From the NCBI GenBank assembly GCA_015178975.1, contig WHVD01000002.1, positions 62,001 through 126,000 of the forward strand: 64,000 bases of DNA. The letters run 5' to 3'. A program made the position numbers and the translations under genes. How positions within the stretch are numbered: position 1 is the stretch's first letter; every line of letters begins with the position of its first letter. Of this stretch, positions 23,296 to 62,426 are shown one piece after another. This DNA is from Hysterangium stoloniferum. Lineage: Eukaryota; Basidiomycota; Agaricomycetes; Hysterangiales; Hysterangiaceae. The notes beneath the pieces are model-generated. The model saw only the letters and a program-made list of their open reading frames with translations, was not told the DNA's origin and did not search any database.

Positions 23296-24247
23296 TTATG
23301 GGGCTATGTTTTGCCCAACCTCAGCCATCTCTTGAGGAAGCTCTGCTACCTCTGTGGGCACCCCATCCTCATCCGACCTGGCATCCTCGGAACTCCCAGC
23401 TTGTGGCTCCTCATATATGTATCCACCGAACTCCATGAGGAATTTCCAAAACTCTGAGCGGAGCTCATGGAGCTCATTCGCCACCACAATTTGGACCTTG
23501 TTGCTTTTTTGGAGCAACTCGTTCTGTGCCTCAATGCCCTCAGCAATCCACCCCAATACATTGTCCAACCCAGACATCCCATCTGTCCCACTAACGTCCC
23601 GCACCCCAGACTCTGTGGGTTGCTTGTGGACGAGCGAGCACCTCACCTTGAGGTGCGCACACTGGTAGCACCCTGGTCCCCACCCGGACTTCCAATTACA
23701 CTCCATGTTCTGGTCATTGCAACCGGAACACTGTGGATTGTTCTGCATTGGTAGGCAGACTGGTGCCGCCTTCCTTGCCTTCTGTTGATCATGGTCAGTT
23801 TTCCCCAGATATCCCACAGACCCAAGACTTACTTTCTGGGGGCTCTCCGGCTCCCCCTCAGACTTGGACTCCACCTCTGTCACTTTGCACTGAAAATACA
23901 AGTCAGTCAAAAGTTCGACAAGTTGAATTATTGGGACTTACCTTTCCGGCAGCAACCGCGGCCCTGTCCACAGCTGCCCGGGCTTTTTCCACGGCCACCT
24001 GCGCAGCCTCCTCCTCATCTCTCTTCCTCTGCCTCTCTGCCTCTTCCTCCATGGCCAAGGCCACCTGGTATTCCATGTCTAGGGCTTCCTCCACCTCCCT
24101 CGCCTCCTTTTCTGCCTCTTCATGTTGTTGGCACTGTTCCTCTCACTGCACCAGTATTTGGGCCATGCTGAGTGGTGCCCAGTATGGAGTGCCCGAGGAG
24201 GGCCCAGTGGTCAGCATGGGTCTTCTTGGCATTGGCTTAGGTCCCAT
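23296..24247 (-). pseudogene. A1 antisense gene: coiled coil, Zn2Cys6-like cluster, acidic tail; three exons
   Basis: Convergent to pol, between integrase and 3' LTR. Exon 1 is 24247-23942 (MGPKPMPRRPM, then Glu/Arg/Ala-rich coiled coil, one TGA in place of an Arg codon). Intron 1 is 23941-23890 (GTAAGT...TTTTCAG). Exon 2 is 23889-23833 (CKVTEVESKSEGEPESPQK). Intron 2 is 23832-23782 (GTAAGT...ATCAACAG). Exon 3 is 23781-23296. All junctions are phase 0. Exon 3 has C-x2-C-x6-C-x9-C-x2-C-x6-C (CSGCNDQNMEC, then CYQCAHLKVRC), the spacing of fungal Zn2Cys6 clusters. Next come a predicted helix (EGIEAQNELLQKSNKVQIVV) and a tail rich in Glu and Asp. The layout suggests a DNA- or RNA-binding regulator of the element, but function is inferred only from spacing and composition. 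Confidence 0.72.
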
Positions 24248-24298
24248 TATGGCAAGATGGGGGTAATAAGAAGAAGAAATTTTCATTTATTCGAAATT

Positions 24299-24306
24299 TC
24301 ATATAG
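24299..24306 (-). promoter_or_regulatory. TATA-like box of the A1 antisense gene
   Basis: On the minus strand CTATATGA lies about 55 bp before the ATG at 24247. A TATA-like box at a similar distance (42-60 bp) precedes the antisense gene in B1, C and the two decayed B copies. Confidence 0.5.
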
Positions 24307-24455
24307 GCTCGTCGTGTCTGAACCTTACCTTCCAGATCACATGACTCTTTGACACATACATGTAGCTGACATGACTTTTGACACATGCTTGTAGCCGACA
24401 AGAACCTTATCGAGGTCTAGAGCCTCTTTGGGACTTCGGCATAAAGGGGGGGTAC

Positions 24456-25279
24456 CGTTATGACTGGAATTCCCACCAGACTCCGGGTACTAACTTATAT
24501 GCACCCATGCCCTATACACACCAATTGTCAGTTTACCAGAATTCCCACCGGACTCTGTACGTCAGACTTGTCTACATTTGACTTCATTACATTGTGTATC
24601 AGTCACCAGAATACCCACCAAACTATGTCCCTGTCTATGTCTGACCTCGTCCCATGCATCAGTCACCAGACCCCGCTTGGAAAACCCGTCATCCCTCTAA
24701 CAGACCCCCATTCCCATTTTAGTCAAATGACCTGTCACAATTTGGACTCCGCTCCCGCTCCGTTTCCCATTATGGTTTATGATTTGTCATGATTCGGACT
24801 CCGCTCCATTCCATCCCGTTCCTAACACCAAATTTGGTGTTTGCTATTCCCATTTTATATTTTGCTAGTTTCATTTCACTTTTACTGGATTTGGTATGTC
24901 ATTCATTCCACGGTCTATATAGTCTGGCAGATGTTGTACATACAATCCAGTCAGAAAATCAGCTTAGATTCCCCCCAGTAATCTAATAGATTTTCTGCTC
25001 TAAACTCCTACTTGAATTACACTGCTCACGCTAGTTGGAGCCCACGGGCTCCAGCACATCTATCTCTCTTATTCATCTGGACTCCCGACCTCTCAAACCA
25101 CAACCTCCAAGCTACAACCCCTCGACCCACAAACCCCACCCAGACTCCCCGGGATTCCCATCCACCTGTCTGAAATTGGACAACACGATCTCGCAAGGGT
25201 GCAGCCTATAAGCTGAAGCCAAGTCCTACCAGATATTCCATGGGTTTCTCCGGAAACCTGCTGTGTACGTACCCTAACA
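24456..25279 (+). repeat. 3' LTR of A1
   Basis: 824 bp, CGTTATGACTGG (first base T changed to C) to GTACCCTAACA. It is preceded by a polypurine tract, ATAAAGGGGGGG, at about 24441-24452. It retains TATATAG, the R start and the leader motif (25198-25227). Confidence 0.92.
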
Positions 25280-25286
25280 AGGAGTG

Positions 25287-26155
25287 TGTTAAGTTCCGAG
25301 GATCTCCTCGAGCCCATGGAGGTTTCTGGTAATTATTCTGAACACTTTCTGGGAATGTCCCACCAAATCCCCAGGTAATAGTCCAGGTAATAGTCTGGGG
25401 GAGTTTCTGGGGATTAGTACAAGGAGTTATCAGAATAATCACCAGAGTACTGAGGTGGACTTGGCTTCAGCTTATGTATGTGCTGTGCCCTTGTACACTC
25501 ATTTGGGTGTCCATATTTTGAGCTAACAGAATGCCTACAAGGAAGAGTAGATTCTGGAGTTCCTGTGGGAGTTCTGGGAATCGAGTGTGCAGACAGACAG
25601 GAGGAGTAGAGACTGGATCAGGATGTACATATTTGGGGTGTAACTAGTTCGAGATTGAAACTGGATTGTAAGTACACGAGTATGGGAGACTATATAAACT
25701 TTGAGATATATGCAATATCAAATATGGTAATAATGAGGTGCAAAACATAATCATGAAATGAGACAGGTAAACACCAAACTAGGTGTTAGGGATGGAACAG
25801 AATGGGAGCAGGGTGCAAAACATGACAGGTCATTTGACCATAATGGGAATGGGGTTCTATGCTCTGTTAGAGGCGATCTGGGAGTCCAGTCGGAGTCTGG
25901 TGAGGGGTGCAGAGAGTTGGGTATAAACAGGTTGATGTGCAGGTCCGGCAGAGTCTGAGGACTGGTGCATGAGACACAGTGTCAGATATAGATAGGTTGA
26001 TGTGCAGGTCCAGTGGAGTCCAACAACTGGTGCATATAGGGTGACGTGGGGGTCCCAGTGGGTACCCTAGTTGTAACTGTACCTTGTGTACGATATAGAG
26101 AGTCAGGTGCATATAGGATGGGGTCTGGAGCCCAGCAGGTTTTCCAGTCCTAACA
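25287..26155 (-). mobile_element. Solo LTR, family F, with 5-bp target duplication
   Basis: 869 bp, TGTTAAGTTCCGAGG to CCAGTCCTAACA, flanked by GAGTG at 25282-25286 and 26156-26160. The reversed leader motif at 25457-25490 (with a 4-bp internal duplication) gives the orientation. It lies directly after the AGGAG of A1; removing both restores Helitron sequence AGGAGTGTCACC. No internal region of this family is in the window. Confidence 0.9.
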
Positions 26156-26390
26156 GAGTGTCACCAAGTAAATATCACTACAGGACCTTCAACAGAAGAG
26201 CTGGCATTCATCCCTCAAATAACAATTATTCCAAATACAAAACAAGTGCCATTTGAACTTCATTGTCAGCAGTTTCCAGTCAGGCTAGTATGTTCTATGA
26301 CCATCAATAAGTCACAGGGTCAATCTTTAAAATTAGTTGGATTGGATCTTGTCAGGGCTCATACATATATTATATTATATTATATTGGTC
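26156..26390 (+). pseudogene. Helitron Pif1-type helicase, C-terminal motifs
   Basis: Continues the helicase interrupted at 17401, with a gap after NFGGVSPSK. It shows ITTGPSTEELAFIPQI, FELHCQQFPVRLVCSMT and the motif VI signature MTINKSQGQSL (about 26294-26329). It ends in an AT-rich stretch near 26370-26390, after which Gypsy G sequence follows. The usual last motif (LYVALSR) is absent. Confidence 0.85.
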
Positions 26391-27796
26391 TTTTGCTGGA
26401 TAAGAAATTTGTGGAGTATCATAACCTTAACACTGTCAAGCTCCCTAGAGCTGTTCCAGTCTACAATGTTGATGGGACACTGAATCATGGAGGATCTATC
26501 CAAGAGGAGGTACATTTAACAATGATATTACAAAACCATACAGAAAAAGCCACCTTTGCTGTATGTGATCTAGGGAATAAGTCTGCTATCATTGGACACA
26601 CTTGGTTATACCAACACAACCCAGAAATAAATTGGAGGACTGGAGAAGTTCACTTTACCAGGTGTCCATCTCAATGTCCTGTAGAAGTTAGGAGAATTAG
26701 GAGGAAGAGGCAGAAGAAGGCAGCAGAATTTAAGAGGAAACTTTCTAGTCCCATTGAGACTGAAGATGATGATGAGGAGGAGGAAGATGACCAGTCAGAG
26801 ATTGAAGACAGTGATAGGATCTGGGCTACAACTATCTATCCTCAAGCTCATGTCAATGCTACTTCTATGTATCTCAGAAGTTGGCAGAAGAATCTCATAA
26901 ACAGGACCAGAAGAAAGCCTTTGAGGATTTAGTCCCCAGCTGTTACCACCAATTTAAAGAGGTGTTCTCCAAAGATCCCTTTGACAGATTACCTGACAGG
27001 AAACCCTGGGATCATGCCATTGAACTAAAACCTGGGTCAGAACCTTTCAGAACCAAGCTTTACCCCTTAGCACCAAATGAACAAAAGGAGCTTTTCTAGA
27101 GGAGAACCTCAAAAGTGGCAGGATCCAACCCTCCAAATCCCCCATGGCATCTTCAGTGTTTTGTGTCAAAAAGAAGGATGGATCCCTGAGGCTAGTTCAG
27201 GATTTCAGGATTATAGGAAACTAAATGACATAACAATCAAAAATTCCTATCCCCTGCCACTTAGATCTGACATTATCAACAAGTTGAAGAAAGCCAAATA
27301 CTTCACCAAACTGGATGTCAGACGGGGTTATAACAATGTGAGGATAAAGAAGGGTGATGGATGGAATGCAGCATTTAGGACCAATAGAGGACTATTTGAA
27401 CCACTGGTCATGTTCTTTGGTCTTACCAACAGTCCTGCTACCTTTCAGACCATGGTGAAGGATCTGTTCATAGAACTGATTGATGGACAGATTGTCATTG
27501 TCTACATGGATGATATCCTTATCTTCACAGAGACCCTTGAAAAACACAGGGAAGCAGTCAAAAGTGTTCTGGAGATTTTGGAGAAAAATAAGTTATACTT
27601 AAAGGCAGAAAAATGTGAATTTGAAAAGGAAAGATTGAATATCTTGGACTTATCATTTCACATGGCTGCATCTCCATGGATCCAGTAAAGATAGAAGGTG
27701 TTTCCAAATGGCCTGAACCTACTACTGTAAAAGAGACACAGTCTTTCCTTGGCTTTGTCAACTCCCAATCATAGAATGTGGTGCCATTTCCCTTTC
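26390..27796 (+). pseudogene. Gypsy family G protease and RT fragment
   Basis: A Gypsy lineage different from A, B and C. It starts inside the protease (LLDKKFVEYHNLNTVKLP, AIIGHTWLYQHNPEINW), followed by a Lys/Arg and Asp/Glu-rich linker. RT motifs are [17 protein letters not shown] (about 27155, needing a frame change), [33 protein letters not shown] and YMDD (about 27505). It ends at FLGFVN near 27770. Gag, the protease active site, RNase H and integrase are missing. The 5' junction with the Helitron is fused in frame by chance, giving an open frame 26246-26932 that spans both elements. Confidence 0.85.
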
Positions 27797-28384
27797 TGTT
27801 ATGACCCATTCCCAGATATTTTAATATCCAATATCATCTGAAACATCCAACCTCTGCCCTAATATATGACCCTGACTTCCGACTATGGAACACTCATAGT
27901 TCCCATACATAGTTCCCATACATACTTCCAGATCTCACCTTTGTGCCATTTAGTAATTTATCAACTGACAAGGATTCACTTGTTTACTTATTGTATTCCC
28001 ATTTTGGAATATTTTCCCTAGTCCATCTTATTGTATTCCCATTTTGGAATATTTCCAATTTCATCTTATTATGATCCTAAATTTGTAGTACAATAATGAG
28101 ATGATCTATATTAGTTCCCACAAATTGTACTTTACTTTAGATCTGATATTGACTTAGTTTCTTATCTCTATTGTCCATCTTTCTGTATGCTCCATATTTG
28201 GAACTCTCCAGAACTCTGAATATCCATATCTTCCAGCATAAGTTTTCATCTCTGAAATTAAGGACCCTGAGTGTTTGTGTAGAGGCAGAGCACATAAGCT
28301 GAAGCTGATGTCCTGACCCTATCCAATAGTTTCCAAGTTCCCAGTGACTTTCCAATAGTATAGGTTCTGACATGGACTTAAACA
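27797..28384 (+). repeat. LTR of decayed Gypsy B copy B2 (5')
   Basis: 588 bp, TGTTATGACCC to ACTTAAACA, with the R-start 11-mer AGATCTGATAT (about 28140) and leader motif 28283-28312. A TATATCAGATCT sequence follows the LTR, as in B1. It is strongly CpG-depleted compared with the B1 LTRs. Confidence 0.9.
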
Positions 28385-28418
28385 GTATATCAGATCTCAA
28401 CTCTGCAACTCGCTCATC

Positions 28419-30331: not shown

Positions 30332-30339
30332 AGCAACCC

Positions 30340-32096: not shown

Positions 32097-32171
32097 GGTG
32101 TAGAATGTTGAGTTGTGGGGATGTTGTTGAACTAGAAAGTGAACAACTATATATATATCTAATTTTGGCAG

Positions 32172-33379: not shown

Positions 33380-33418
33380 ACTTCCGATCTGACACTTGTT
33401 CTTCAAAATCATGCAAGT

Positions 33419-33453: not shown

Positions 33454-34592
33454 TCATAAAGTTTCCGACACCTCAAATCCTCCTTCCACTTCAACTCCCA
33501 TATTATCATCTGCAACCTCCACACTTTCCACCATATCCTGCACTTAATCATCTTCACTTTCCGGCCCCTTTCCCGACTCCCACCTTTTCTCCACACATTC
33601 TGCCAACAGATCATTTGGCTGGTCCCTTGCCTTATTGGAAAACCTTTCAGAAACTGCAATAATGCCAATGCTGACCATTACTTTCTCCAGGAAATTGTTC
33701 TACCTCCAGAAATTTCGGGTCAAAGACTGGAAACCTTTTTCTTGGATATCATTATGGCACTCCAGAGCATCCTGCATCTTCATCAGTTCTGTCCCGATAA
33801 AACCCAATGCATCCACAGCATCTTTGAGAAGTTCAATGCTGGAACTATCCATATTCGGTACCTCAGCCTCTGCAGTCTTGGCCATTCCCAGATTTTCTGC
33901 ACTGTCAGTTTTCTGAGCCTTCTCACCTTTTGGAGCCCTCTTCATGGTGAGAGTGCACAGAAGTTTGAGTACTGTGCAAGGGTAGCAAGTTCCACCCCAT
34001 TTTACCTTCTGCTTCCAACAAGTCAAGTTCTGAATTGAGCACCAATAACATGGATTATTGTGGACAATTTCCATCTGTTCTGGAGCCTTGACCTTTTGTT
34101 TCTGTTTCAGAAATTAGTCATGTTCTGACCTTATACAGAATCACTTACTTTAGGGCTCAAAGGCCCAGCCTCTCCCTCCACTTCCACTCCACCTCCATGG
34201 CTTTTTGTACGTTAAATTGTTATCAAAAGAAATATGGAACATTGTTTTTTTTGACTTACCTTTCCCTCCCTTATCTCCCTCACTCGCTTTTCCGCCACTT
34301 TGGCATCCACTGCTTTTTCTCTGCTTCTTCCTTCAACTTCCAATCCCCCACCATTTTCTGCAACCACACCTCCTTTTCTGCCTTCACCCACTCCAACTCA
34401 CACTTTTCCACTTCTTCTGCCTCCTTCAATTCCCACATCAACACTTTCTCCTCCTCCTCTTGTTCACTTCAACTCCTCCATCCTCTGTCATTTTCATTGA
34501 AGTTCTTTGACCTTCAAAATTTTTGTGAGTACAGTAATTTTGGCATCTGAATCTTCCGGAGTGGTGGAAAATAACAGTTGATGAATCAACAT
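33454..34592 (-). pseudogene. Antisense Zn2Cys6-like gene of Gypsy B copy (i)
   Basis: Same gene as in B1. ATG at 34592 is preceded by TATAAAAAA about 50 bp upstream (plus strand 34640-34649). The cysteine cluster reads CYWCSIQNLTC, then CYPCTVLKLLC (C-x2-C-x6-C-x10-C-x2-C-x6-C) at about 34050-33960. It is followed by LLKDAVDALGFIGTELMKM and EKGFQSLTRNF helices, then a stop after NFWR at 33700 and an acidic tail in broken frames. A donor GTAAGT and the exon 2 GPLSPK-type motif lie near 34160. Confidence 0.68.
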
Positions 34593-36070: not shown

Positions 36071-36615
36071 TGTTACGACCCGTTCCCGGATGTTTTCAAT
36101 ATCCGACTTCCGATCTCCGACCACGGAACATCATAGTTACCATATCATCCACATTCTTCCCTTGTTCTGCATTTGGTAATTTGTCCGTTGACAAGGATTC
36201 ACTCATTTGTTTGTTGTATTCCCGTTTCGGAATATTGTCCCCCTAATATGTCTTATTGTATTTCCGTTTTAAGAACACTTCCATTTCCATCTTATTATGG
36301 TCTTAGTTTGTAGTACAATAACGAGTAGACTTATATTAGTTTCCACGAATTTGTACTTTACCTTAGATCTGATATCAACTTAGCTTCTTATTCCTCCTCC
36401 CATCTTTCTATACGCTCGATATTCGGAACTCTTCGGAACTCTGAATATCCGTATCTTCCATCATAAGCCTTACTTCCGAAATTAAGGACTTTGAGCGTTT
36501 GCGTAGAGGTGCAGCACATAAGCTGAAGCCGGCGTCCTGACCCTATCCAATAGTTCCTGACTTCCCGGTGACTTCCCGATAGTTCCGGAATAAGTTCCCG
36601 ACACAGCACTTAACA
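36071..36615 (+). repeat. 5' LTR of B1
   Basis: TGTTACGACCCG to GCACTTAACA. TTATATTA at 36331-36338 is a TATA-like box; 33 bp further is AGATCTGATAT (36365-36375), the presumed transcript start. The leader motif is at 36507-36537. Confidence 0.93.
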
Positions 36616-37879: not shown

Positions 37880-40800
37880 GCAACCCTCCGGAATCTGCAC
37901 GGACAGAGGGTTGCGTTGACTCTCTCCGTGTTTCCGAGGTTATCCGTCTCAACATGTCCGCTCTCTCTAATCCCGATTCATTATTTGTAAAACTCATTTC
38001 TGACTTTCTTGGAAATTTAGTGTTCCGAGCTCTGATAGATTCCGGCTCCACACACTGTTTTGTAGATACCTCCTTTGCCTCGAAACATAATCTGAAACTC
38101 CATTCTGTTCCTGCAATTTCCTTGCATCTGTTTGACAGCACTAGCAATACGGCAATTACCCAAGCCTGCGACATGTCTATCCAGTTCCCTTGTGGAACAT
38201 CCCAGATGGTTACTTTTTTCGTAACACAGTTGGACTCTAGCTGTTCGGTAGTTCTTGGATACAACTGGCTCACCCAATATAATCCGTTGATTGACTGGGT
38301 ATTGGGCAGTATTAATTTCCGAATTCCCGACACTTCGGTTCCTCCTGCAGCATCTTTTCCGGCCAACGCCTTTTCGGCATCAACAGCATCTCCGGCTTCT
38401 ACCGAAACCTCCATGCCTCCAAAAATCTCTCTCATCAACACTTCGGCATTTGTTAGGGCGAGTAAACTGGATGGTTCGCAGTGTTTTTCGATCAGCTTAA
38501 AAGTTGATGAAGCATCTGGACGTTTTGCGACTCCAGAATTATCCGAGCTAAAAGCCGACCTGGAAGAAGTTCCCGAAAAATACCATGATTTCGCAGACAT
38601 TTTCAGTAAGCAAAAAGCTGACAGGCTTGCACCACATAGGCCCTACGACTTAAAAATTGATATTGAGCCCGGTTCAAACCCTCCGTTAGGACCTATTTAC
38701 CCATTATCCCAATTGGAACTTTCATCTATTCGGGAGTTCCTGGATGAACATCTGTCGATAGGTTTTATCCGTCCCTCAAAGTCTCCGTATGGAGCACCCA
38801 TCCTTTTCGTCAGAAAGAAGGATGGCTCTCTTCAACTCTGTGTCGATTTCAGAGGATTAAATTCCATCACACGGAAAGATAAGTATCCACTTCCACTCAT
38901 TACCGATTTACTCGACACCCCACAGAAAGCTCGGATCTACACCAAAATAGACCTCAAACACGCCTATCATTTGGTCCAAATTGCCGAGGGTGATGAATGG
39001 AAAACTGCTTTTCGGACTTGCTATGGATCCTTTGAATGGTTGGTTATGCCGTTCGGCTGTACCAATGCCCCTTCCGCTTTTCAACGTTTTGTTAATGATA
39101 TATTTTCCGACATGCTTGACGTATGGGTTATAGTCTATTTGGACGACATTTTGGTATTTTCCGAGGTTCCCGCTCTCCACGATGAACAGGTCCATGAGGT
39201 CTTCCGAAGACTCCATAAAAACGGTCTTTTCACCAACAGTAAAAAATGCTACTTTGACATGGATTCTATTGAATACTTAGGTTTCATTATCGGGCCTGAT
39301 GGTCTCCGTATGGATGAAACCAAGGTTCAAGTTGTCCGTGATTGGCCCGAACCACAGAAAGTCAAGGATATTCAGTCATTTTTAGGTTTTGCCAACTTTT
39401 ACCATCATTTTATTCGGAACTACTCGGACATTACAGTACCGCTCACTCATCTTACCCGTAAAACTCAACCATGGCTCTTTGACGACAAATGCCACTCCGC
39501 CTTCCAGACTTTAAAAAATGCTTTTACTTCGGCCCTGATTCTTTCCCATTGGAAACCTGATGTTCCAATTATTGTGGAAACCGATGCTTCCGATTATGCA
39601 ATTGCCACGATTCTTTCCATTCAAGATTCCGACGGTGAAATTCATCCAGTCGCATTTCTTTCTCGGACACTGAAAGTGTCCGAACTCAACTACGATGTTC
39701 ATGATAAGGAACTTTTGGCAATTTTTGAAGCTTTCAAACATTGGTGCCATTATCTCGAAGGTTCCGCAACTCCCGTTGACGTTGTTACCAATCACAAAAA
39801 TCTTGAATATTTTTCCACCACTAAACTTTTAACCTGCCAGCAGGCCCGCTGGTCCGAATTCCTTTCTGCTTTCAACATGATTATCCGTTTCCAACCCGGA
39901 TGTCTTGGTGGAAAACCAGATGCCATGACTTGACGATGGGATGTCTATCCTAAAGAGGGGGAAAGTAACTATGCCATTGTTAATCCACATAACTTAAAAC
40001 CAGTTTTTACAATGCAACAACTTTCCGCATCTATCCGAGCAATTTCCCTCTACTATCCAATTATGCGTAGTGTCATGATTATGGACATTGGGCAATTACA
40101 TCAAGATATCCTTTCCACACTCACTTCCGATCCAGCTCTCAAGCCACACCTAGAAGTTCCTGACAATCCGGACCAACCCCGATGGTCACAAGACTCTTGA
40201 GGTTTTATCCGTCTCGATGGACATATCTACGTTCCAGATTCCAACAATCTCCGACTCCGCGTACTTCAGTATAAACACGATCATCCAATCTCCGGACATT
40301 ATGGCATTAACAATACTCTCGGTTTGATCCGTAGAGAATACACTTGGCCCAGCCTCCGAGATTTCGTAACCCAGTTCTAAAAACCCTGGAACTCAATTTC
40401 CATGGATTTTATCGAACAACTCCCGACTTCCGAAGGCTTTACATCCATTCTAGTTGTTGTGGATCGATTCTCGAAACAAGGCATTTTCATACCCACTCAT
40501 GATACCATCACGTCCTTATAATTAGCGGAACTTTTCATTATTCACGTATTTTCCAAACACGGAGTTCCATCTCACGTAACTTCCGATCGAGGCTCCAAGT
40601 TCATCTCCCATTTTTTCCAGGCCCTCGGAAAAGCCCTTGACATGAAACTACACTTCACCTTGGGATATCACCTGGAAGGTGATGGACAAATGGAAAGCGT
40701 AAATCAAACATTGGAACAATACCTCCACATCTATTGCAATTATCAACAGGACAACTGGAAATCCCTTCTCCCGATCGCGGAATTCACCTACAATAACTCT

Positions 40801-41483
40801 CCGAATGCAACTACCGGTGTATCTCCTTTCTTCGCCAACAAAGGCTATAATCCGAATCTCACTGTACATTCTGAACAAGATTTGGCTTCCATCTGTGCTC
40901 AAGAATTTATTACTGACCTCGACGAATTACATCAAGAACTTCGGAAAGCTATTTCTTCTGCACAGGAATATTATCAACGTTCTGCAGACAAAAACAGGAT
41001 CCCACCTCCTAATTTTAAAATCGGTGATCAGGTTTTTGTAAAAGCTCAATTCTTCTGTACTACCTGACCTTCTAAAAAACTTGCTGAGAAATTCTTAGGA
41101 CCTTTTGAAATTATAGCACAAGCCGGTTCACTCTCATGGACTCTCCGACTTTCCAATAGTATGCGAGCAGTTCATCCCGTTTCCACGTTTCCATGTTAGA
41201 ACCCTGTGTTCCTAACAAAATCCCAGAACGTATTCAACCTCCGTCCCCTCTGGTCATCATTGACGGAGAACCCGAATTTGAAGTTTCCGAAAATTTGGAT
41301 TCTAAAATCGACAATCACCGATGTACTTGTAAATTGCTCTATTTAGTCAAATGGGCAGGTTATGAAGGTACTGACAAGGAAACTTCATGGATATTGGCCA
41401 TGTAACTCGGACACGCTATGGAAATTGCTACTGATTTCCACACGGCTTATCCAAGCAAACCCGGACCTTTATCATTACTCTGA
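37880..41483 (+). pseudogene. B1 pol: 659 codons open for pro-RT-RNase H, then broken integrase
   Basis: The open frame 37954-39933 begins [14 protein letters not shown]; the same frame is open back to the end of gag. Protease: [12 protein letters not shown] (about 38032). [41 protein letters not shown] and YLDD (39136-39147). RNase H: VETDASDYAIATI and HDKELLAIFEAFKHW. A TGA at 39931 replaces an Arg codon (MT-RWD). The integrase follows with TILVVVDRF-type and TSDRGSKF motifs, EGDGQMESVNQ, a C-terminal domain and the chromodomain CKLLYLVKWAGYEGTDKETS (about 41325-41385). A deletion at about 40380 removed the C-terminal half of the zinc finger and its linker, and stops occur near 40198, 40378, 40521, 41065 and 41402. 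A typical chromovirus polyprotein. Confidence 0.9.
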
Positions 41484-41579: not shown

Positions 41580-42691
41580 CTATTTTAAAGTCTCTGACAC
41601 CCCAAATCCACCTTCCATCCTGACTTCCGTCTCATCAGCAATTTCCGCACTTTCCACCATATCCTGCACCTCTTCATCCTCACTCTCTAATATTTCCGGC
41701 CCATTCCCTGACTCCCATCTTTTCTCGACACATTCCACCAACAGATCATTTGGCTGTTCCCTTGCCTTATTGGAAAATCTTTCGGAAACTGCGATAATAC
41801 TGATGCTAACCATTACCTTCTCCAGGAATTCGTTTTGCCTCCGGAAGTTTCGAATCAACAAATGGAAACCTTTTTCCTGGATCTCATTATGGCGATCTAG
41901 TGTATCCCGCATTTTCATAACTTCTGTCCCGATAAAGACTAACACGTCGACTGTGTCCTTGAGGAGCTCCATGCCCGTACTATCCATTTTCGGTACCTCA
42001 GTTTCCGCAGTTTTTGGCCACTCCCGAACCTTCCACGTCGTTAGTTTTCTGAGGCTTCTCACCTTTCGGAACCCTTTTTGAGGAAAGAGTGCATGGAAGT
42101 TTAAGGACCGCGCAGGGATAGCAGGTTCCACCCCATTTTACCTCCTGTTTCCAACATGTCATACTCTGTATGGAACAATGATAACACGGATTTTCATGGA
42201 CCACTTCCATCCGTTCTGGAGCCTTGACCTTTGGCTTCTGTTTCGGAAGTTAATCAAATATCGGCCTTTTGTATATGCACTACTTTAGGACTCGAAGGTC
42301 CAGCTTCTCCCTCTACCTCCACCTCCATGGCTTTTCACTGTACCCAATAGTTATCGGTTGAAACCACGGAATCTACGGATGGCACTTACCTTTCCTTCCC
42401 TTATCTCCTCACATTTCTTCACCGCCTCTGACTCCCGCTGTAACCTTTCCGCCTCTTCCTTCCTTTTCTGAGCCTCCACCTTTGCCCGCTCCAACTCCTG
42501 CTTTTCCGCCTCTTCCGCATCTTTCAACTCCTGCATCAACGCTTTCTCCTCCTCCTCCTGTCGTCGCTTCAACTCCTCCATCTTTCGTTGTTTTTGTTAA
42601 GTTCTGCAACCTTCGACATTTTTTGTAGAACGGCAATTTTGGTATCTGAATCTTCCAGGGTAGTGATGAACAGAGGCCGACGAATTGACAT
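41580..42691 (-). pseudogene. B1 antisense gene: coiled coil, Zn2Cys6-like cluster, acidic tail
   Basis: Ends 97 bp from the pol stop, tail to tail. ATG at 42691 (MSIRRPLFITTLEDSD), then after a 1-base loss the coiled coil MEELKRRQEEEEKALMQELK running to EEIREGK, where a GTAAGT donor lies at 42389. Exon 2 is short (MEVEVEGEAGPSSPK). A second intron runs from GTAGTG to GAAACAG. Exon 3 carries CYHCSIQSMTC, then CYPCAVLKLPC, i.e. C-x2-C-x6-C-x10-C-x2-C-x6-C (about 42187-42095). Helices follow (GMELLKDTVDVLVFIGTEVM, NEFLEKVMVSISIIAV), then the acidic tail ILESEDEEVQDMVESAEIAD. One extra A near 42017 shifts exon 3. The intron 1 acceptor is not certain. The protein is predicted to be nuclear, binding DNA through the zinc cluster; this is inference. 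Confidence 0.75.
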
Positions 42692-42738: not shown

Positions 42739-42748
42739 GTTTTTATAC
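42739..42748 (-). promoter_or_regulatory. TATA box of the B1 antisense gene
   Basis: On the minus strand GTATAAAAAC lies about 50 bp before the ATG. The same element stands at the same distance in copy (i) (34640-34649) and copy (ii) (62473-62482). Confidence 0.65.
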
Positions 42749-42875: not shown

Positions 42876-43420
42876 TGTTACGACCCGTTCCCAGATGTTT
42901 TCAATATCCGACTTCCGATCTCCGACCACGGAACATCATAGTTACCGTATCATCCACATTCTTCCCTTGTTCCGCATTTGGTAATTTGTCCGTTGACAAG
43001 TATTCACTCGTTTGTTTGTTGTATTCCCGTTTCGGAATATTGTCCCCCTAATATGTCTTATTGTATTTCCGTTTTAAGAACACTTCCATTTCCATCTTAT
43101 TATGGTCTTAGTTTGTAGTACAATAACGAGTAGACTTATATTAGTTTCCCCAAATTTGTACTTTACCTTAGGTCTGATATCGACTTAGCTTCTTATTCCT
43201 CCTCCCGTCTTTCTGTACGCTCGATATTCGGAACTCTTCGGAACACTGAATATCTGTATCTTCCATGGTAAGCCTTACTTCCGAAATTAAGGACTTTGAG
43301 TGTTTGCATAGAGGCACAGCACATAAGCTGAAGCCGACGTCCTGACCCTATCCAATAGTTCCCGACTTCCCAGTGACTTCCCAATAGTTCCGGAATAAGT
43401 TCCCGACACGGCACTTAACA
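42876..43420 (+). repeat. 3' LTR of B1
   Basis: 545 bp, same length as the 5' LTR. Preceded by the polypurine tract AGGGGGG (about 42866-42872). The leader motif is at 43312-43342. Confidence 0.93.
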
Positions 43421-43544
43421 ACGGTGTGCCAAATGCATGGGTCATAACAGTATCTCCCCATATGGCCGAAGTCCCATGGAGGCTGAGAAATGAAAAATGT
43501 ACACATCAAGCGAGTTAGCCGATGTGTCAAGAAACGAAAAAGCT

Positions 43545-43552
43545 TATATAAG
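43545..43552 (+). promoter_or_regulatory. TATA box of the element C antisense gene
   Basis: TATATAAG lies 40 bp before the ATG at 43591, matching the spacing of the B-family copies though the surrounding sequence differs. Confidence 0.65.
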
Positions 43553-43590: not shown

Positions 43591-44487
43591 ATGTCATCTA
43601 ACAACAGGACGATCTCTAGCCCCTCGGGACCCATGGGTACACCAAGTCTGAACAACTTGCAACGCTAAGTACAAGAGAGGGAGGTGCGTCGTTTGCAAGA
43701 AGAGGAGGAGGCGAGGAGAGACACTGAGTTGCTGGTGGCCGCTGAGAGGGCCGAGGAGGAGTGAAAGAAGAGGGAGGAGCAAAAAAGGGCAGAAAAGTGG
43801 AAAAAGGCAGAGGAGGATGCATGTTGGAGGGCGGCGGTTGCTGCACTTGCAAACGAGAAGGCCGAGGCCAAGGCGAGAAAGGTCAGTGTCCAAAAAACTA
43901 AGGATTGCTGAGCACTAATGACTTGGAGGAACCAGAAGTGGGGCTGTCATCCCCGAAGGTAAGTGATTTTCTTCTTTTTTTTTTTTGTTTAGCATACTAA
44001 TATTGTCGAATAGAAAGCACGTCGTGCCCCCAAAGTGGGGCCCAAAAACAACCCAAGGTGCATTCGGTGTGCTTCGTGCAACTGAACATGCCATTGCCAG
44101 GTTGGAGGCCAAGGGCACACTTGTACAGAGTGCACCAATTTGAAACTTGGGTGCATGTGGCCGGCTGCCAACAGGATGTTGGAGAGCCTTCTGGAGTGTC
44201 TTACCGACACTCTTGAGGAGTGAAACCAGCTGTTCAGAATTATGAGTGACACCCTGGCATGGGTCAAGGAACATGCAACATCTGCACGCTTCAATGGGCG
44301 TGCGATACGAAAGTCACTGGAGATTCTGACTGCACAGGCTGGCTCCTTTTTGCAGGCATGCAGAATCCAGGATGGGGTTCCTGGTGAAGGCAGATGCTGA
44401 TACTGATGAGTTGGAGTCAGAGGAGGCGGAAGAGACTGGGGGCTCTGAGGAGGTTGAAGAGGAGGTGGTACCGGGAGAAACCCTCTA
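43591..44487 (+). pseudogene. Element C antisense gene: coiled coil, Zn2Cys6-like cluster, acidic tail; three exons
   Basis: Lies on the plus strand while element C runs on the minus strand, so it is antisense and convergent with pol (stop at 44612). Exon 1 is 43591-43881 (MSSNNRTISSPSGPMGTPS, then a Glu/Arg/Lys/Ala coiled coil with two stops at likely CAA and CGA sites). Intron 43882-43928 (GTCAGT, branch ACTAATG, TTGGAG). Exon 2 is 43929-43958 (EPEVGLSSPK). Intron 43959-44013 (GTAAGT, branch TACTAAT, GAATAG). Exon 3 is 44014-44487 with C-x2-C-x6-C-x10-C-x2-C-x6-C (CIRCASCN then a TGA, CTECTNLKLGC). The tail is ELESEEAEETGGSEEVEEE. A frameshift near 44380 precedes the tail. Sequence identity to the A and B genes is low, but the exon layout is the same. 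Confidence 0.72.
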
Positions 44488-54302: not shown

Positions 54303-54304
54303 GT

Positions 54305-54315
54305 ATTTTCTGACT
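54305..54315 (+). promoter_or_regulatory. Self-priming site of A2
   Basis: ATTTTCTGACT, two bases after the LTR, is the exact complement of AGTCAGAAAAT at 53958-53968. The same pair is present in A1 (17832-17842 with the 3' LTR copy). Confidence 0.7.
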
Positions 54316-54338
54316 AAGACTTGCAGATTGTTTTCATT

Positions 54339-55605: not shown

Positions 55606-55619
55606 AAGCAACCCACACG

Positions 55620-58315
55620 GGTTGGGGGTTGCATTGCCTCTCCGTGCATTCAAGAGTTTACCCGTCTCAACGCATCCACTCTTTCACATTCTGATTCATT
55701 TTTCATTAAACTTACATCTAATATGATTCTGAAATTCATTTTTCCAGCTCTTATAGATTCCGGCTCGACTCATTGTTTTTTAGATACAAAATTCATGCAA
55801 AAACATTTGTTGTCAAATTATCTGATAAATCCCATTGGCCTCCGCCTCTTTGATGGCACAAGTATGTAATTCGGTTGTTACCCAAGCTTGTGATTTATCC
55901 ATCTGTTTCCCATGTGGAACATCTCAATTGGTCACTTTCTATGTGACCCAGTTAGACTCAAGTTGCTCAGTGGTCCTTGGACACAACTGGCTTCCCCGCC
56001 ACAATCTGTTGATTGACTGGATAGCTAACAGTATAACTTTCCAGACCCCATGGCAGCCGAGGAAACTCCACCCGACCCGGCCTCCACAGCACCCATGGCC
56101 TTCCTGGCACCTGCAGTCTCAAGGACTCCTGTGATCCCTACGGCACCCATGGCTTCCCCGGAACCCACAGCACCTCCATCTATTTTTCTGATTAATGCTG
56201 CAGCTTTTATTAAGGCTACAAAAATGGACGGGTCCCAGGCATTCACTATCAACTTAAAAATTGATGAAGCAACTGGACGTTTTTCAACCCTGGTATCCAA
56301 ATCTGAGCAAGCCACTGACCTAGAAGGCATCCCGGAGAAATATCATGACTTCACGGATGTTTTCAGCAAGTGGAAAGCTGACCAGCTTCCACCCCACAGA
56401 GAATACGACTTAAAAATTGATCTCGAAGATGGCGCCCAGCCACCCCTAGGACATATTTACCTGCTCTCGTCCATGGAACTTTCCGTGATCCACAATTTCC
56501 TGGATGAACATTTGTCCATAGGTTTTATCAGACCCTCAAAGTCTCCTTTTGGAGCACCTGTTCTGTTTGTCAGAAAAAAGGATGGATCCCTTAGACTATG
56601 TGTTGATTTTAGAGGACTCAATGCTGTCACCAAAACAGATAAGTATCCACTTCCACTTATATCTGATCTGCTTGATGCTCTGCGGAATGCCCAGATTTAC
56701 ACCAAAATAGATCTCAAACATGCCTATCATTTGGTCTGGATTGCTATGGGTGACGAATGGAAGACCACTTTTAGAACCTGCTATGGGGCCTTTGAGTGGT
56801 TGGTGATGCCCTTTGGACTCACCAATGCTCCGTCTGTTTTTCAGCATTTTATCAATGACATTTTCTCTGACATGCTCAATGTATGCGTTATTGTTTACTT
56901 GGATGACATTCTTATCTACTCTGATAATCCCGTGGAACACGACAAACAAGTCTGTGAAGTTCTCTGGAGACTCAGACAACATGGTTTATTCGCTAATGTG
57001 TTAAGAACTGACTGACAGGCCAAATGTCGGGTAACTGACGGGCCAAATGTCGGGTAACCAACGGGGGCCAAACAGAAGGACTTGGCTTCAGCTTATGTGC
57101 TGCGCCCTCACAAGTTCATGTTGAATGTCCTTAGATTTCGAGGCCGAGGTCAGAGGCCGAGGTTGGAGACCGAGGTTAGAGACTGAGGTCAGACCGAGGT
57201 CGAAGACCAAGGATGCAGATGGCGGGATACTTATAGTAGAGCTAGGGGGATGTTCTGAGTCAATATTCTGATTGCCTAGTAACTACAACTACAGCAGGTT
57301 CATATACAAGTAACAGGCGTCTAGAAAATACTAATGGGGAGAAAGGCGGAAAATGGTATTAACAATAAGCTTGACTAGAAACGGGAAGTTTATGATTAGT
57401 TCAAAGGCCAATGATAACCGAGAGTGGGACTACGGTAAAAGGAAATAGTTTGAGGGTTACAGATATATATAGACATATGTGAAACATAGTGTAAAACGGA
57501 TCATCATAATGGAAAGGGACGTATCAAAGCATAACCAGACAGAAAAGGCATAGTCGGGTTTGAATAACCAGGAGGGTATACGTCAGTGTCGGGATGCCAA
57601 CAGCTTCCGAGATGTCGACTTGATTGAAGACAGACAAATACTACGACGATATACCATGGGGGCCATCGGCTTGCAAGGGGTCACAACACAGTCGTAACAG
57701 AATGGTAAAAAATGTACTTTTGACACGGACTCCATGGAATACCTGGGTTTCATCATGGGACCCAACAGACTCTGCATGGATGAAACTAAAGTGCAAGTCA
57801 TCAAAGATTGGCCCAAACCCTGAAAAGTTGAAGATATATAATCCTTCCTCGGCTTTGCCAATTTTTACTGACGGTTTATCCGTGGATATTCCAACATCAC
57901 GGTACCCCTTACCCATCTTATGCATAAGGATACTCTGTGGAATTTTAATGATAAGTGTCAAAAAGCTTTCAATCTTTTCAAAAATTCTTTTTCTTCAGCT
58001 CCTATTCTATCGCATTGAAAACTGGACTTCCCACTCATTGTCAAAATGGATGCCTTGGACTATGCACTTGGAGCCATTCTGTCTATCCAGGACTCTGACA
58101 GAGAAGTCCACCCCGTGGCTTTTCTATCCCAGACTTTTACCAGAGCAGAGCTCAACTACGATGTTCATGATAAGGAACTCCTGGCAATTTTTTCAGCTTT
58201 CAAAGCATGGCGACACTATTTGGAAGGCTCGGGAACTCCGATTGACATTGTTAAAGATCACAAAAACCTGGAATACTTTTCTACCACAAAACTTTTGACC
58301 CATCGGCAACCCCGT
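55620..58315 (+). pseudogene. A2 pol: protease, RT, RNase H (integrase deleted)
   Basis: Protease [12 protein letters not shown] at about 55755. The open frame 56050-57015 covers the [37 protein letters not shown] and YLDD (about 56896-56907). It is interrupted at 56999 by solo LTR H and resumes at 57700 ([10 protein letters not shown] in another frame). RNase H follows with SQTFTRAELNYDVHDKELLAIF and YFSTTKLLTH. At about 58315 it jumps to antisense-gene sequence. Stops occur at about 57823, 57868 and 58018. Confidence 0.87.
56999..57699 (-). mobile_element. Solo LTR, family H, inside A2 RT
   Basis: 701 bp, TGTTAAGAACTGACTG to CAGTCGTAACA, flanked by TAATG (56994-56998) and GAATG (57700-57704), a 4-of-5 match. 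It contains the reversed leader motif (57078-57107), a doubled GGCCAAATGTCGGGTAAC unit (about 57017-57060) and a GACCGAGGT-rich minisatellite (about 57136-57215). Confidence 0.85.
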
Positions 58316-58915
58316 CCTCATCCAACCCAGCATCCTTGGAACTCCTGACTTGCGGCTCTTCATACACATAGCTGCCATACTCTGCCAGGAACCTCCAAAA
58401 CTCCTCATGGAGTCCACACAGCTCCTTTGCCACCACAATCTGGACCTTGTTGCTCTTCCAGAGCAACTCATTTTGGGCCTCGATGCCCTTGGCAATCCGT
58501 CCTAGGACCTCATCCAGCCTGGAAAACCCGTCCAACCCACTGATGTCTTGCGCCCCGGACCCCATGGCCTGCTCATGAACGAGCGAGCACCTCGCCTTGA
58601 GGTGCACGCATTGGTAGCAGCCTGGACCCTGGCCAGACTTTCAGTTGCATTCAGTGTTCCGGTCATTACAACCGGAACACTGCAGGTCATTCTGTGTGGG
58701 TAGGTGGACTGGTGCCACCTTCCTTGCCTTCTGTTGATATGGTTAGTTCCCTGGTTATCCCACAGACCCGAGACTTACCTTTTGGGGGCTCTCCGGCTCC
58801 CCCTCAGACTCCAATTTGACCTCTGTTGCCTTGCACTGAAAATGACAAGTCAGTGAAAAGAAAAAACAACAAGTGGAAATTTGGGACTTACTTTTCCCAC
58901 AACAAGCATACATGG
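58316..58915 (-). pseudogene. A2 antisense gene, exons 2-3, truncated
   Basis: Both introns of the A1 gene are conserved: exon 1 end then GTAAGTCCC to TTTTCAG, and GAGCCCCCAAAAG then GTAAGTC to ATCAACAG. The cysteine cluster CSGCNDRNTEC, then CYQCVHLKARC is complete, with a TGA in place of the Trp after the third Cys. The C-terminal acidic part is lost at the deletion joint with RNase H (58315), and exon 1 is cut near 58910. Confidence 0.7.
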
Positions 58916-58940
58916 ACTCTCGAACTAATAAAAAGGGGGT

Positions 58941-59079
58941 ATGACCCGTATTTATGAGTGATAGAAAAGAAAATAAAAATATAAAACATAAAGGAAATAA
59001 TGGAATTATAAAGTGGCTAAGGGGTAAGGCTTAGAGTCTTTGGTCGTGCCTCCTATGTGATCTATCCTTCACACTAACA
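58941..59079 (+). repeat. Atypical 3' terminal segment of A2
   Basis: It follows a polypurine tract and runs TATGACCCGTATTTATGAG to TTCACACTAACA against the GGCAT duplication. It is AT-rich and does not match LTR A beyond the ends. It may be a rearranged or different LTR. Confidence 0.5.
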
Positions 59080-60069
59080 GGCATTAAGAATACTCTTGGT
59101 CTAATCTGAAGAGAGTATACTTGGCCCAACCTCCAAGATTTCATAACCCAGTTCTGTAAGTCATGCACACTTGCTTACACTCTAAATCCCAGAGACATAA
59201 GCCATACGGCCTTCTCAAGCAACTTCCAATACCAGAAAAACCCTGGAACTCAATTTCCATGGATTTTATTGAACAACTTCTGACTTCCAAAGGCTTTACA
59301 TCCATCCTAGTTGTTGTAGATTCATTCTTGAAACAAGGAAATTTCATACCTACTCATGATACAATCACATCCTTACAATTAGCAGAACTTTTCATTATTC
59401 ATGTATTTTCCAAACATGGTGTTCCATCTCACATAACTTCCAATCGAGGCTCCAAGTTTGTTTCTCATTTCTTCCAGGCCCTTGGAAAAAGCCTCAACAT
59501 GAAATTACACTTCACCTCGGGATATCATCTGGCAGGTGATGGACAAATGGAATGTGTCAACCAAACCCTGGAACAATATCTCCACATTTATTGCAACTAC
59601 CAACAGGACAATTGGAAATCCTTTCTTCCACTTGTGGAATTTGCCTGCAATAACTCTCTGAATGCAACCACCAGTATCTCTCCCTTTTTTGCCAATAAAG
59701 GCTATAATCTGAATCTCACAGTACATTCCAAACAATATTTGGCATCTGCCTGTGCTTAAGAATTTATTACTGACCTCAATGAGTTACATCAAGAACTTCA
59801 GAAAGCTATTTCTTCTGCTCAGGAACACTATCAACATTCCACAGATAAAAACAGGATCCCACCTCCTAAGTTTAAAATTGGTGATCAGGTTTTTGAAAAA
59901 CTGAATTCTTCCGAACTACTCGACCCTCTAAAAAACTTGCTGAGAAATTCTTAGGCCCTTTCAAAATTATAGCACAAGCCGGCTCACTTTTCTGGACTCT
60001 CTGACTTCCTGATAACATGCAAGCAGTTCATCCTGTTTTCCATGTTTCCATGTTAGAACCTTGCATCCC
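59080..60069 (+). pseudogene. Gypsy B integrase, middle part, copy (ii)
   Basis: Continues from 53474: GIKNTLGLI, CKSC zinc-finger part (about 59155, partly frameshifted), SILVVVDSFLKQG (the Arg after Asp changed), ITSNRGSKFVSHFF (catalytic Asp changed to Asn), AGDGQMECVNQ, then the integrase C-terminus with LGPFKIIAQAGSLFW. The D-to-N change and stops make it dead. It is interrupted at 60070 by a solo LTR A in the codons for PCIPNN. Confidence 0.87.
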
Positions 60070-60889
60070 TGTTACGACCGGACAAATCCCGCCGGACTCC
60101 GGGCACTAACCCGTACGCCCCCACGCGCTACAAGCACCAATCGTCTGTTTATAGGATTTCCCGCCCGGACTCCGTTACATCAAGACTCGTTACGTTCGAC
60201 CTCATTAAGACACATATCAGTCACCGGACTTCCCCCGGACCCCGTCTCTGTCTATGTCCGTCTTCGTCCCACGCATCAGTCACCGGTCCCGGCTTAGAAT
60301 CCCGTCACCGCTCTAATCGAGCCCCGTTCCCGTTTTAGTCAAATGACCTGTCACGATTTAGGACTCCGCTCCCGCTCCGTTTCCCGTTATGGGTTATGCT
60401 TTGTCACGATTCGGACTCCGCTCCGTTCCGTCCCGTTCCTAACACCAATTTGGTGTTTACTATTCCCGTTCTATGTTTTGCTCGTTTCGTCTCATTATTA
60501 CTGGATTCGGTATGTCATGCATTCCACGGTCTATATAAACTGGCAGATGTTGTACATACAATCCAGTCAGAAAATTAGCTTAGATTCCCCCCAGTAATCT
60601 AATACATTTTCCTCTCTAAAACCCTACTCTTATCAGACCGCTCGCACTAGTCGGAGCCCACGGGCTCCGGCGCATCTATCTCTCTCGACTATCTCGATTC
60701 ATGACTCTCGACTCACGACCTACGACTCACAACCCACGAACCCCCGCCCGGACTCCCCGGGATTCCCGTCCGCCTGTCTGAAATTGGACAACACGATCTA
60801 GCAAGGGCGCAGCCTATAAGCTGAAGCCAAGTCCTACCGGATATCCCGCGGGTTTCTCCGGAAACCCGGCCTGAGTGTGTATCCTAACA
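60070..60889 (+). mobile_element. Solo LTR, family A, CpG-rich, with target duplication
   Basis: 820 bp, TGTTACGACCGG to ATCCTAACA, flanked by ATCCC at 60065-60069 and 60890-60894. It keeps many CpG sites that are TpG or CpA in the other A LTRs, so it is probably the youngest A insertion here. The leader motif is at 60805-60835. Confidence 0.94.
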
Positions 60890-61165
60890 ATCCCTAACAA
60901 CATCCTGGAATGTATTCAACCCCCACCTCCTCCAGTCATCATTGATGGAGAACCCAAATTTGAAGTTTCTGAGATTTTGGATTCTAAAATTGACAATTGC
61001 TGACATACTTGTAAATTGCTCTATTTGGTCAAATGGGCAAGCTACAAAGGTACCAATGAAGAAACTTCATGGATATTGGCCATGGAACTTGGACATGCTA
61101 CGGAAATTGTAACTGACTTCCACACCACCTATCCTAGTAAACCCAGACCTTTATTGTCACTCTGA
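60890..61165 (+). pseudogene. Gypsy B integrase tail and chromodomain, copy (ii)
   Basis: NNILECIQPPPPPVIIDGEP, EVSEILDSKIDN, then a stop and the chromodomain CKLLYLVKWASYKGTNEETS (about 61010-61070), ending KPRPLLSL-stop near 61165. One intact copy of the W-x-x-Y-x-G pattern has Ser for Gly (KWASY). Confidence 0.85.
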
Positions 61166-61280
61166 CTTCTTCCATTCTCTTTCCATTTACTTTCCGACAC
61201 TTCCAATTCTGACACTCATTCTTCAAGATTATGCAAGTTAAAAAAAGAAATTATTATTGCAACTTTCATAAAGTTTCTAA

Positions 61281-62426
61281 TCATCCCTCTGCTTCAACTC
61301 CCATCTCATCTGCAATCTCCACACTCTCCACCATTTCCTCCACCTCCCCATCTTCACTTTCCGACTTTTCTCCCAACACCTATCTTTTCTTGACAATATC
61401 TGCCAATTGATCATTCAGTGCATCCTTCTCCTTATCAGCATATCTTTCAGAAACCACAATAATACCAATGCTGACCATTACCTTTTCCAGAAACTCATTC
61501 TTTTTTCGGAAGTTCTGATTCAATGCCCAGAAACCTTTCTCTTGGACATCATTATGGCACTCTAAGGTTTCCCAAACCTTCATCAATTCCATCCTGATAA
61601 ATATCATTGCATTAATGGTATCCTTAAGGAGTCTGATGCTGGTATCATCATCCATATTCAGCACTTCAGTTTCCATAGTTTTAGCTGTTCCTGAGGTTTC
61701 CACAACTGCCACTTTTTCCACCTTTTTGACCTTTTGAGCCTTGTCATTTTTTGGAGTCTGCTTCACAGTGAGAGTACATGGGATTTTGTTCACTGTGCAA
61801 GGGAAACAGGTGCTGCCCCATTTTACCTTTTGTCTCCCACAAGTGATGCCCCAGCTCCCACAATGCTGACATGGAATTTCATGGGCAGTTTCCATCTGTT
61901 CCAGAGCCTTGGTCTTTTGTTTCTGTTTCAGAAACTGATCATAACCTGGAACTATTACCAATCACTTACCTTTGGGCTCAAAGGCCCAACCTCCTCATCC
62001 ACCTCAACGGCTTTCTGCTGTTATGTATCTACCGTTATCAGATATACATGGAACTTTTTCAGCCCACTTACTTTCCATCCTGATTCTCTTTCAACCACTG
62101 CTCTTCCACCATGGCATCCTGCTGTTTCTTCTCTCCCTCTTCCCACAACCTCTGATCTTCCATAACCTTCTGCAACCACATCTTTCTCTTTTCCTCCACT
62201 GCTTCCTTCTCCACCTTCACCTGCTCCAACTCCCACTCTTTCCACTTCTTCCACCCCTTTCAATTCCCACATCAACACTCTCCTCCTCCTCTAGCTGTCG
62301 CTTCAACTCCTCCATCCTCTGTCATTTTCATTTAAGTTCTTCAACCTTTGACATTTTGGCTAGTATGGAAATTTCAGCATCTGAATCTTCCGGAGTGTTG
62401 GCAAATAACAGTTGATGAATCGACAT
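61281..62426 (-). pseudogene. Antisense Zn2Cys6-like gene of Gypsy B copy (ii)
   Basis: ATG at 62426 (MSIHQLLFANTPEDSDAEI), TATA box 50 bp upstream. The coiled coil MEELKRQLEEE follows after two stops. Exon 2 carries AVEVDEEVGPLSPK (about 62016-61972), then the donor GTAAGTG and an intron to GAAACAG near 61925. Exon 3: QMETAHEIPCQHCGSW, the cluster CQHCGSWGITC, then CFPCTVNKIPC (x2, x6, x10, x2, x6), and helices NEFLEKVMVSIGIIVV. A TAG at 61380 replaces a Trp codon. After it the acidic tail SESEDGEVEEMVESVEIADE is still readable to a stop at 61281. Confidence 0.73.

Follow-up and report, generated by a model that had tools for sequence, protein, structure and literature searches.

What does a retrotransposon carry on the strand opposite its own coding sequence? 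We addressed this question in a stretch of 64,000 nucleotides from Hysterangium stoloniferum (contig WHVD01000002.1, positions 62,001–126,000 of the forward strand, from an assembly of 111 Mb; hereafter, the window), in which Gypsy elements of three families, designated A, B and C, harbor an antisense gene with two introns and a cluster of six cysteines. This analysis found two further families with the gene, D and E. We consider it virtually certain that this is a real protein gene kept by selection; computation established how the gene is built and where it lies, and showed that the moving lineage was under purifying selection, with neutral decay setting in after insertion.

Architecture and position of the antisense gene

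In all five families, the gene is flanked by the chromodomain end of pol and the 3' long terminal repeat (LTR), and its layout comprises three exons, two phase-0 introns and the Cys6 cluster. Glu, Lys and Arg abound in exon 1; the short exon 2 has SPK or SPQK at its C-terminal end; and the predicted protein of exon 3 consists of the Cys6 cluster, further helices and an acidic tail. All three exons are open in loci L122 (family D) and L128 (family E). In L128, pol and the antisense gene are arranged tail-to-tail, with ~85 bases between their stop codons. A TATA box separates the gene from the polypurine tract and 3' LTR; in the window copy B2, its distance to the LTR is ~130 bp.

As for the elements themselves, reverse transcriptase (RT) and RNase H (RH) scored above the Pfam cut-offs in B2, as did H2C2, rve, SH3_Tf2-1 and Chromo in L128 (Chromo, 27.4 vs 25.1 bits). 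Chromo was below the cut-off in L125 (25.0 bits), L003 (24.1 bits) and the decayed pieces of the window (16.3 and 21.0 bits). With RT-RH, integrase and chromodomain found, the host elements are chromoviruses, i.e. Ty3/Gypsy elements with an integrase chromodomain.

We scored the best 40 of 763 first-look candidates for A, the best 40 of 356 for B, the best 150 of 507 for D and the best 150 of 914 for B/E (with the metagenomic protein P0003 as the query), and these lists partly overlap. The 98 loci that were fetched are the best similarity matches, not a random sample. Intron lengths ranged from 44 to 58 nt in the A, B+E and D copies, and GT donors were present at 210 of 212 scored sites (introns 1 and 2, respectively: B+E, 50/50 and 49/49; A, 38/39 and 39/40; D, 17/17 and 17/17), AG acceptors at 209 of 212 (B+E, 49/49 and 47/49; A, 40/40 and 39/40; D, 17/17 and 17/17). 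Likewise, 99 of the 106 scored copies contained TATA[AT] at most 90 bases before the ATG (B+E, 48/49; A, 36/40; D, 15/17), at median distances of 56 bp (B+E) and 57 bp (A and D). Among copies in which the six codons were present, all six Cys were retained in 49/50 (B+E), 37/39 (A) and 15/17 (D). A six-frame search found the Cys spacing in 87 of the 98 fetched loci, 21 of the 87 with an internal stop, and did not find it in 11.

The association with pol was examined in the best 92 of 5685 candidate integrase-chromodomain matches (B/E type). An exon 3 match lay directly downstream of 77 of the 92, on the opposite strand in 77/77, and the gap between pol and exon 3 in these pairs was 83–784 nt (median, 123 nt). 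The other 15 pol matches had no counterpart in the gene list, which comprised the best 150 of 914 candidates; three were fetched, and antisense gene sequence was present in all three, two of which were internally deleted and one of which showed 79% identity as far as the fetched sequence extended. Antisense orientation, a position between pol and the 3' LTR, and presence in most copies of the family, three features of an antisense additional ORF in this position (aORF-3R), were found, the last of them in the B/E group. Two E-like loci, L136 and L138, carry differing internal deletions of the antisense gene, and their pol ends have 97–98% protein identity to that of L128.

Purifying selection on the reading frame

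We computed the ratio of nonsynonymous to synonymous changes (dN/dS) by the Nei-Gojobori method (NG86) for exons 1 and 3 of A, exons 1 and 3 of D, and exons 1–3 of B+E, with stop codons masked, a coverage filter of 80% and copies mapped to a real reference copy. The values were 0.239 and 0.255 for A (39/40 copies each), 0.195 and 0.196 for D (17/17 copies), and 0.243 (49/50), 0.181 (49/50) and 0.226 (50/50) for B+E, whereas forward-shifted frames of these sets gave 0.81–1.28. Thirteen B/E elements had a usable pol (eight E and five of seven B); dN/dS in these was 0.44 for the integrase-chromodomain part of pol, 0.21 and 0.19 for antisense exons 1 and 3, and 0.94–1.78 for shifted frames. When codons touched by CpG in any copy were removed, dN/dS was still 0.08–0.20 (shifted frames, 1.0–2.4), which rules out CpG decay as the source of the low values.

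Variants were counted at non-CpG sites relative to the reference, leaving out sites where the reference held the minority state and variants present in exactly two copies. Over six exon sets, variants confined to a single copy comprised 147 synonymous, 545 nonsynonymous and 38 stop changes, and those in at least three copies comprised 163 synonymous, 88 nonsynonymous and 6 stop changes (Fisher tests, P from 1.4e-5 to 2.3e-10 per exon set). Because single-copy changes look neutral and shared changes look constrained, the moving lineage is constrained and inserted copies decay freely.

In the gene frame, 51 of 106 copies had an open exon 3 (B+E, 29/50; A, 15/39; D, 7/17), against 0/106 in each of the other five frames. 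Sense-strand coding was rejected for exon 3, since every sense frame was interrupted there in all copies; chance antisense frames were rejected by the dN/dS values, the contrast between single-copy and shared variants, and the open-frame counts.

Several observations weigh against this reading. One reverse frame, the mirror of the gene frame, also displayed a reduced dN/dS (0.31–0.41). Stops exclude the mirror frame for exon 3; exon 1 of A and D is uninformative in this respect, being stop-poor on both strands, with sense frames open in up to 24/36 and 8/17 copies, respectively. Changes that separate the two frames favored the mirror frame in B+E exon 3 (6:1) and D exon 1 (1:0); the other four sets favored the gene frame by 29:9, and all six sets together by 30:16. 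For E alone (eight copies), dN/dS was 0.31, 0.17 and 0.18 for exons 1, 2 and 3, the figure for exon 1 being the one of concern. Finally, the copies are not all independent, and some are near-identical (for example, L025, L026, L028, L029, L033 and L035; L098, L101 and L102) and may be assembly or segmental duplicates. The past selection on a protein for which the original prediction argued is nevertheless strongly supported by dN/dS compared with shifted frames, by the single-copy versus shared contrast, by the conservation of splice sites and the TATA box, and by the homologue P0003 described below.

Copies of the gene in the window

An antisense three-exon gene had been predicted at six places in the window, and we confirmed it at all six; the C copy is on the plus strand since its element runs on the minus strand. 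All six are damaged: A2 lacks exon 1, and C contains stops and frame breaks. The predicted Cys spacing is present without stops in A1, B1, B2 and B3, and with one stop inside in each of A2 and C, and the TATA-like box before the ATG was located in A1, B1, B2, B3 and C.

23942..24247, minus strand: A1 exon 1 (predicted charged helix), one internal stop
23833..23889, minus strand: A1 exon 2, ending in ESPQK at a GTAAGT donor
23299..23781, minus strand: A1 exon 3, open; Cys6 cluster, helices and acidic tail
23638..23730, minus strand: A1 Cys6 cluster, CSGCNDQNMECNWKSGWGPGCYQCAHLKVRC
24301..24305, minus strand: A1 TATA-like box
24457..25279, plus strand: A1 3' LTR, with a G-run (polypurine tract) just before it
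58316..58915, minus strand: A2 gene remnant (exons 2–3), stop within the Cys cluster at ~58679-58587
33454..34592, minus strand: B1 antisense gene; cluster at 34050-33955 without stops; stops in exon 3
42390..42691, minus strand: B2 exon 1, frame broken internally
42284..42337, minus strand: B2 exon 2, ending in SSPK; stop at its start
41583..42237, minus strand: B2 exon 3, frame broken; cluster at 42186-42091 without stops
42740..42747, minus strand: B2 TATA box, TATAAAAA on the gene strand, between the ATG and the 3' LTR
36071..36615, plus strand: 5' LTR of the B2 element, 95.6% identical to its 3' LTR
42876..43420, plus strand: 3' LTR of the B2 element
37954..39933, plus strand: B2 pol; protease, reverse transcriptase and RNase H
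41160..41405, plus strand: C-terminal piece of B2 pol, chromodomain trace below the Pfam cut-off (decayed copy)
61281..62426, minus strand: B3 antisense gene; cluster at 61871-61776 without stops; exon 3 cut early by a stop
43591..44487, plus strand: C antisense gene (element on the minus strand); cluster spacing at 44059-44154, one internal stop
~43544-43551, plus strand: C TATA box

Near its start, the A LTR has three ~24-base repeats spaced 70–72 bp apart (window positions 24463-24628). Elsewhere in the window, positions 3-2708 (plus strand) hold an open frame of 901 amino acids with about twenty 42-residue TPR_10 units, encoded by 126-bp repeats that are 84–93% like the first; in this it resembles the homogenized repeat arrays of fungal NLR-type proteins. 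Positions 5290-6887 and 10637-12241 are DNA-transposon-like units with inverted repeats of 98% and 91% identity that enclose DDE_3 and Tc3-type transposase frames, and positions 16523-17005 contain a PIF1-like helicase fragment, possibly from a Helitron or a host gene.

Homologues and divergence between families

Searches for homologues returned P0001, P0002, P0003, P0004 and P0005, all of which except P0003 are Hysterangium fragments. P0003, a metagenomic protein of 227 amino acids, aligns with exon 3 and retains all six Cys; its identity is 39% to B and 44% to E. No match was obtained in viral contigs with P0003 as the query, nor in plasmids or the sequences of solved structures with exon 3 of L122. 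The other four are public H. stoloniferum 'hypothetical proteins' and represent fragments of antisense genes; in P0002, exon 1 is joined to exon 2 where intron 1 was predicted to be spliced out.

Between families, the exon 3 proteins were 22–43% identical (79% for the E/B pair), compared with 69–90% for the SH3-chromodomain ends of pol (69–87% outside the E/B pair); the gene and pol sequences of A, B and C were drawn from different copies of the family. Synonymous differences between E and B (five copies of each) were 0.43, 0.31 and 0.39 in exons 1, 2 and 3 and 0.20 in pol, with 95% ranges of 0.33–0.45 for exon 3 and 0.17–0.23 for pol, exon 2 being too short to tell; the divergence of exons 1 and 3 is thus ~2-fold that of the adjacent pol. 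Because this divergence is higher in the gene than in pol, the two may have partly separate histories, a hint of mosaic ancestry, or their mutation rates may be unequal.

Nature of the predicted protein

The Cys spacing satisfies C-x2-C-x6-C-x5..12-C-x2-C-x6..8-C, which we take to be the canonical Zn(2)-Cys(6) range. The Zn_clus profile (PF00172) gave 15.7 bits for A1, 10.2 bits for L122 and 8.8 bits for L128, compared with a gathering threshold of 21, and the Pfam scan yielded no Zn_clus match in L103, L066 or P0003. When six half-cluster pieces were compared with Pfam, the sole match came from the first half of A1, which aligned with the second half of the profile at 14.0 bits. First halves were nearer to canonical second halves in 5/5 cases and second halves nearer to canonical first halves in 3/5, in a weak test against yeast motifs. 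Two results count against a zinc-cluster regulator: exon 3 matched no Pfam family at the cut-off, and the basic signature of canonical Zn2Cys6 proteins, CxxCRxRKxKC, is absent from the first half of the cluster. Membership in the canonical Zn2Cys6 domain was rejected on the grounds of the Pfam score below the cut-off and the missing first-half signature.

The Glu/Lys/Arg-rich exon 1 had been predicted to form a coiled coil. In single sequences of D, E and A (a piece for the last), hydrophobic residues at heptad positions a and d were no more frequent than in shuffled sequences (P = 0.98, 0.37 and 0.77, respectively), and i,i+4 salt pairs were enriched (P = 0.017, 0.011 and 0.043). A dimerizing coiled coil is unsupported, the pattern being one of salt bridges instead of heptad periodicity, and exon 1 looks like a charged single helix. 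Accordingly, of the small transcription regulator that the original prediction envisaged, the Cys spacing and the acidic tail stand; the match to Zn_clus, the first-half basic signature and the heptad coil do not.

Candidate target motif

Among the 5-mers of the E LTR, TTCCG/CGGAA deviated most from Markov expectation, and its LTR counts were 16 in E (2.4 expected under dinucleotide shuffling), 10 in B (1.4) and 1 in A (0.9). In the E LTR, 12 of 16 occurrences are in one orientation, and the motif is also enriched in E pol and the E gene; observed/expected ratios were 4.2 for E, 3.3 for B, 2.0 for C, 1.9 for A and 0.9 for D. Speaking against a target, a control stretch (window positions 1-14000) was also 2.3-fold enriched, and the CpG of the motif in B copies was no better kept than other CpG in the LTR (P = 0.69); in B pol, it was kept less than other CpG (P = 0.006). 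CGGAA as a selected binding site was rejected, since the enriched motif is neither preferentially retained nor unique to the element, and TTCCG/CGGAA stays a lead as a possible target motif. The L128 LTR also contains three copies of GACTTCCG.

Possible roles of the gene product

We lean, with some hesitation, toward an accessory protein of the element with a role in nuclear regulation of that element. The gene is an accessory gene of these chromoviruses, with a TATA box and two host-type introns of its own. Its predicted protein has a long charged helix, then a short acidic linker, the zinc-type cluster of six Cys, more helices and the acidic tail. On established knowledge, retrotransposition would leave antisense introns in place, as the template that is copied back is the sense RNA. 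Less certainly, the antisense RNA would be made and spliced, and the protein would bind zinc and, as a trans-acting nuclear factor, target DNA or chromatin and tune the expression or silencing of its own family in the manner of HBZ in HTLV-1. A more specific form of this proposal, to which we give little credence, is that each family has its own fast-diverging, self-recognizing factor that would bind dense CGG-type motifs (CGGAA in B/E) and keep or set expression against host silencing. If true, LTR elements would possess a counterpart of the VANC anti-silencing proteins, based on a zinc cluster and located on the antisense strand where introns survive.

Of the alternatives, the one that survives best is a nucleic-acid-binding cofactor of replication or integration, nucleocapsid-like or an integrase-targeting partner, which would work on element RNA or cDNA and not in transcription. 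The failure of the cluster in the canonical Zn2Cys6 tests is compatible with such a protein, as is the occurrence of the gene on chromodomain elements next to the integrase end. An independent antisense promoter would, however, be an odd source for a particle component, and no Pfam match to gag or zinc-knuckle families was found; we therefore rate this cofactor as unlikely, though it deserves serious consideration.

The protein might instead damp its own element, sparing the host, with selection acting through copy control. HBZ is described as antagonizing the HTLV-1 activator Tax, and repression would fit the same anatomy. Hundreds of first-look candidates and E copies that are >99% identical indicate that any restraint is weak, and we find a self-limiting repressor hard to credit. 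A host gene, captured or domesticated and serving the host, is very improbable: the H. stoloniferum records do include the predicted proteins P0001, P0002, P0004 and P0005 from such copies, but the constant position in elements and the neutral-looking single-copy changes are unexpected for a host gene. Least probable of all is that only antisense transcription matters, as double-stranded RNA or interference in copy control, with the reading frame as a passenger; antisense promoters acting through RNA are discussed for LTR elements (PMC7264820), but frame-specific purifying selection on the scored exons, the single-copy versus shared results and the conserved splice sites contradict it.

Comparison with known systems

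The original prediction knew of no described fungal antisense gene of this kind. The gene brtn of the element Boty is reportedly to be credited to Zhao et al. (2011). As described in three papers, brtn is an antisense gene of a fungal chromovirus in Botrytis cinerea and Sclerotinia sclerotiorum (PMC7264820, PMC8365987, PMC4227169), so that the absence of a precedent was wrongly assumed. Both genes are antisense and occupy the stretch from pol to the 3' LTR in fungal Gypsy elements that have a chromodomain; however, the hosts of Boty are ascomycetes, and the likeness is one of position and strand. Position, orientation and presence in most family copies are also shared with the aORF-3R genes of plants (maize Grande gene23, rice RIRE2, Silene Retand and PvRetro13), according to a review (PMC7264820). 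As stated there, Grande gene23 is preceded by a promoter and its product is nuclear, and the function of plant aORF-3R proteins is called unknown, with no clear database similarity except for the SMC domain of PvRetro13 (PMC7264820). The words 'zinc' and 'intron' are absent from the main text of that review.

The fungal Zn(2)-Cys(6) factors (PF00172) resemble the predicted protein in six-Cys spacing and acidic tail, but differ in that our sequences are below the Pfam cut-off, have a first half that resembles the canonical second half, and lack CxxCRxRKxKC. HBZ of HTLV-1, the product of a spliced transcript, is similar as an antisense, element-encoded regulator; it differs in being a leucine-zipper protein with a transcript start in the 3' LTR, and we claim no homology. 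VANDALs, by comparison, are DNA transposons. The VANC proteins of Arabidopsis VANDAL elements are accessory proteins of mobile elements, and VANC21 recognizes a short motif densely represented in its own family (PMC5735166). VANC is, however, an unrelated protein from elements that are not LTR elements, and the motif link here is only a lead. Fungal LTR elements have been surveyed in PMC3248453, whose main text contains neither 'antisense' nor 'zinc'; that of a fungal co-option screen (PMC10799480) contains neither 'Zn2Cys6' nor 'antisense'. At the level of titles and abstract openings, with subscription literature outside this coverage, we found no zinc-cluster antisense gene in a basidiomycete element.

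Antisense accessory genes are recurrent in plant LTR retrotransposons, and one is known in ascomycetes, according to the review (PMC7264820). The gene described here combines a defined Cys cluster with introns and a promoter position that are conserved; first-look candidates run into the hundreds, and purifying selection is clear, down to the contrast between shared, selected changes and neutral single-copy ones. The function of such genes is now opened to ordinary biochemical and RNA tests. The gene also provides an example of introns protected against loss by their strand, since it is RNA of the opposite strand that gets copied.

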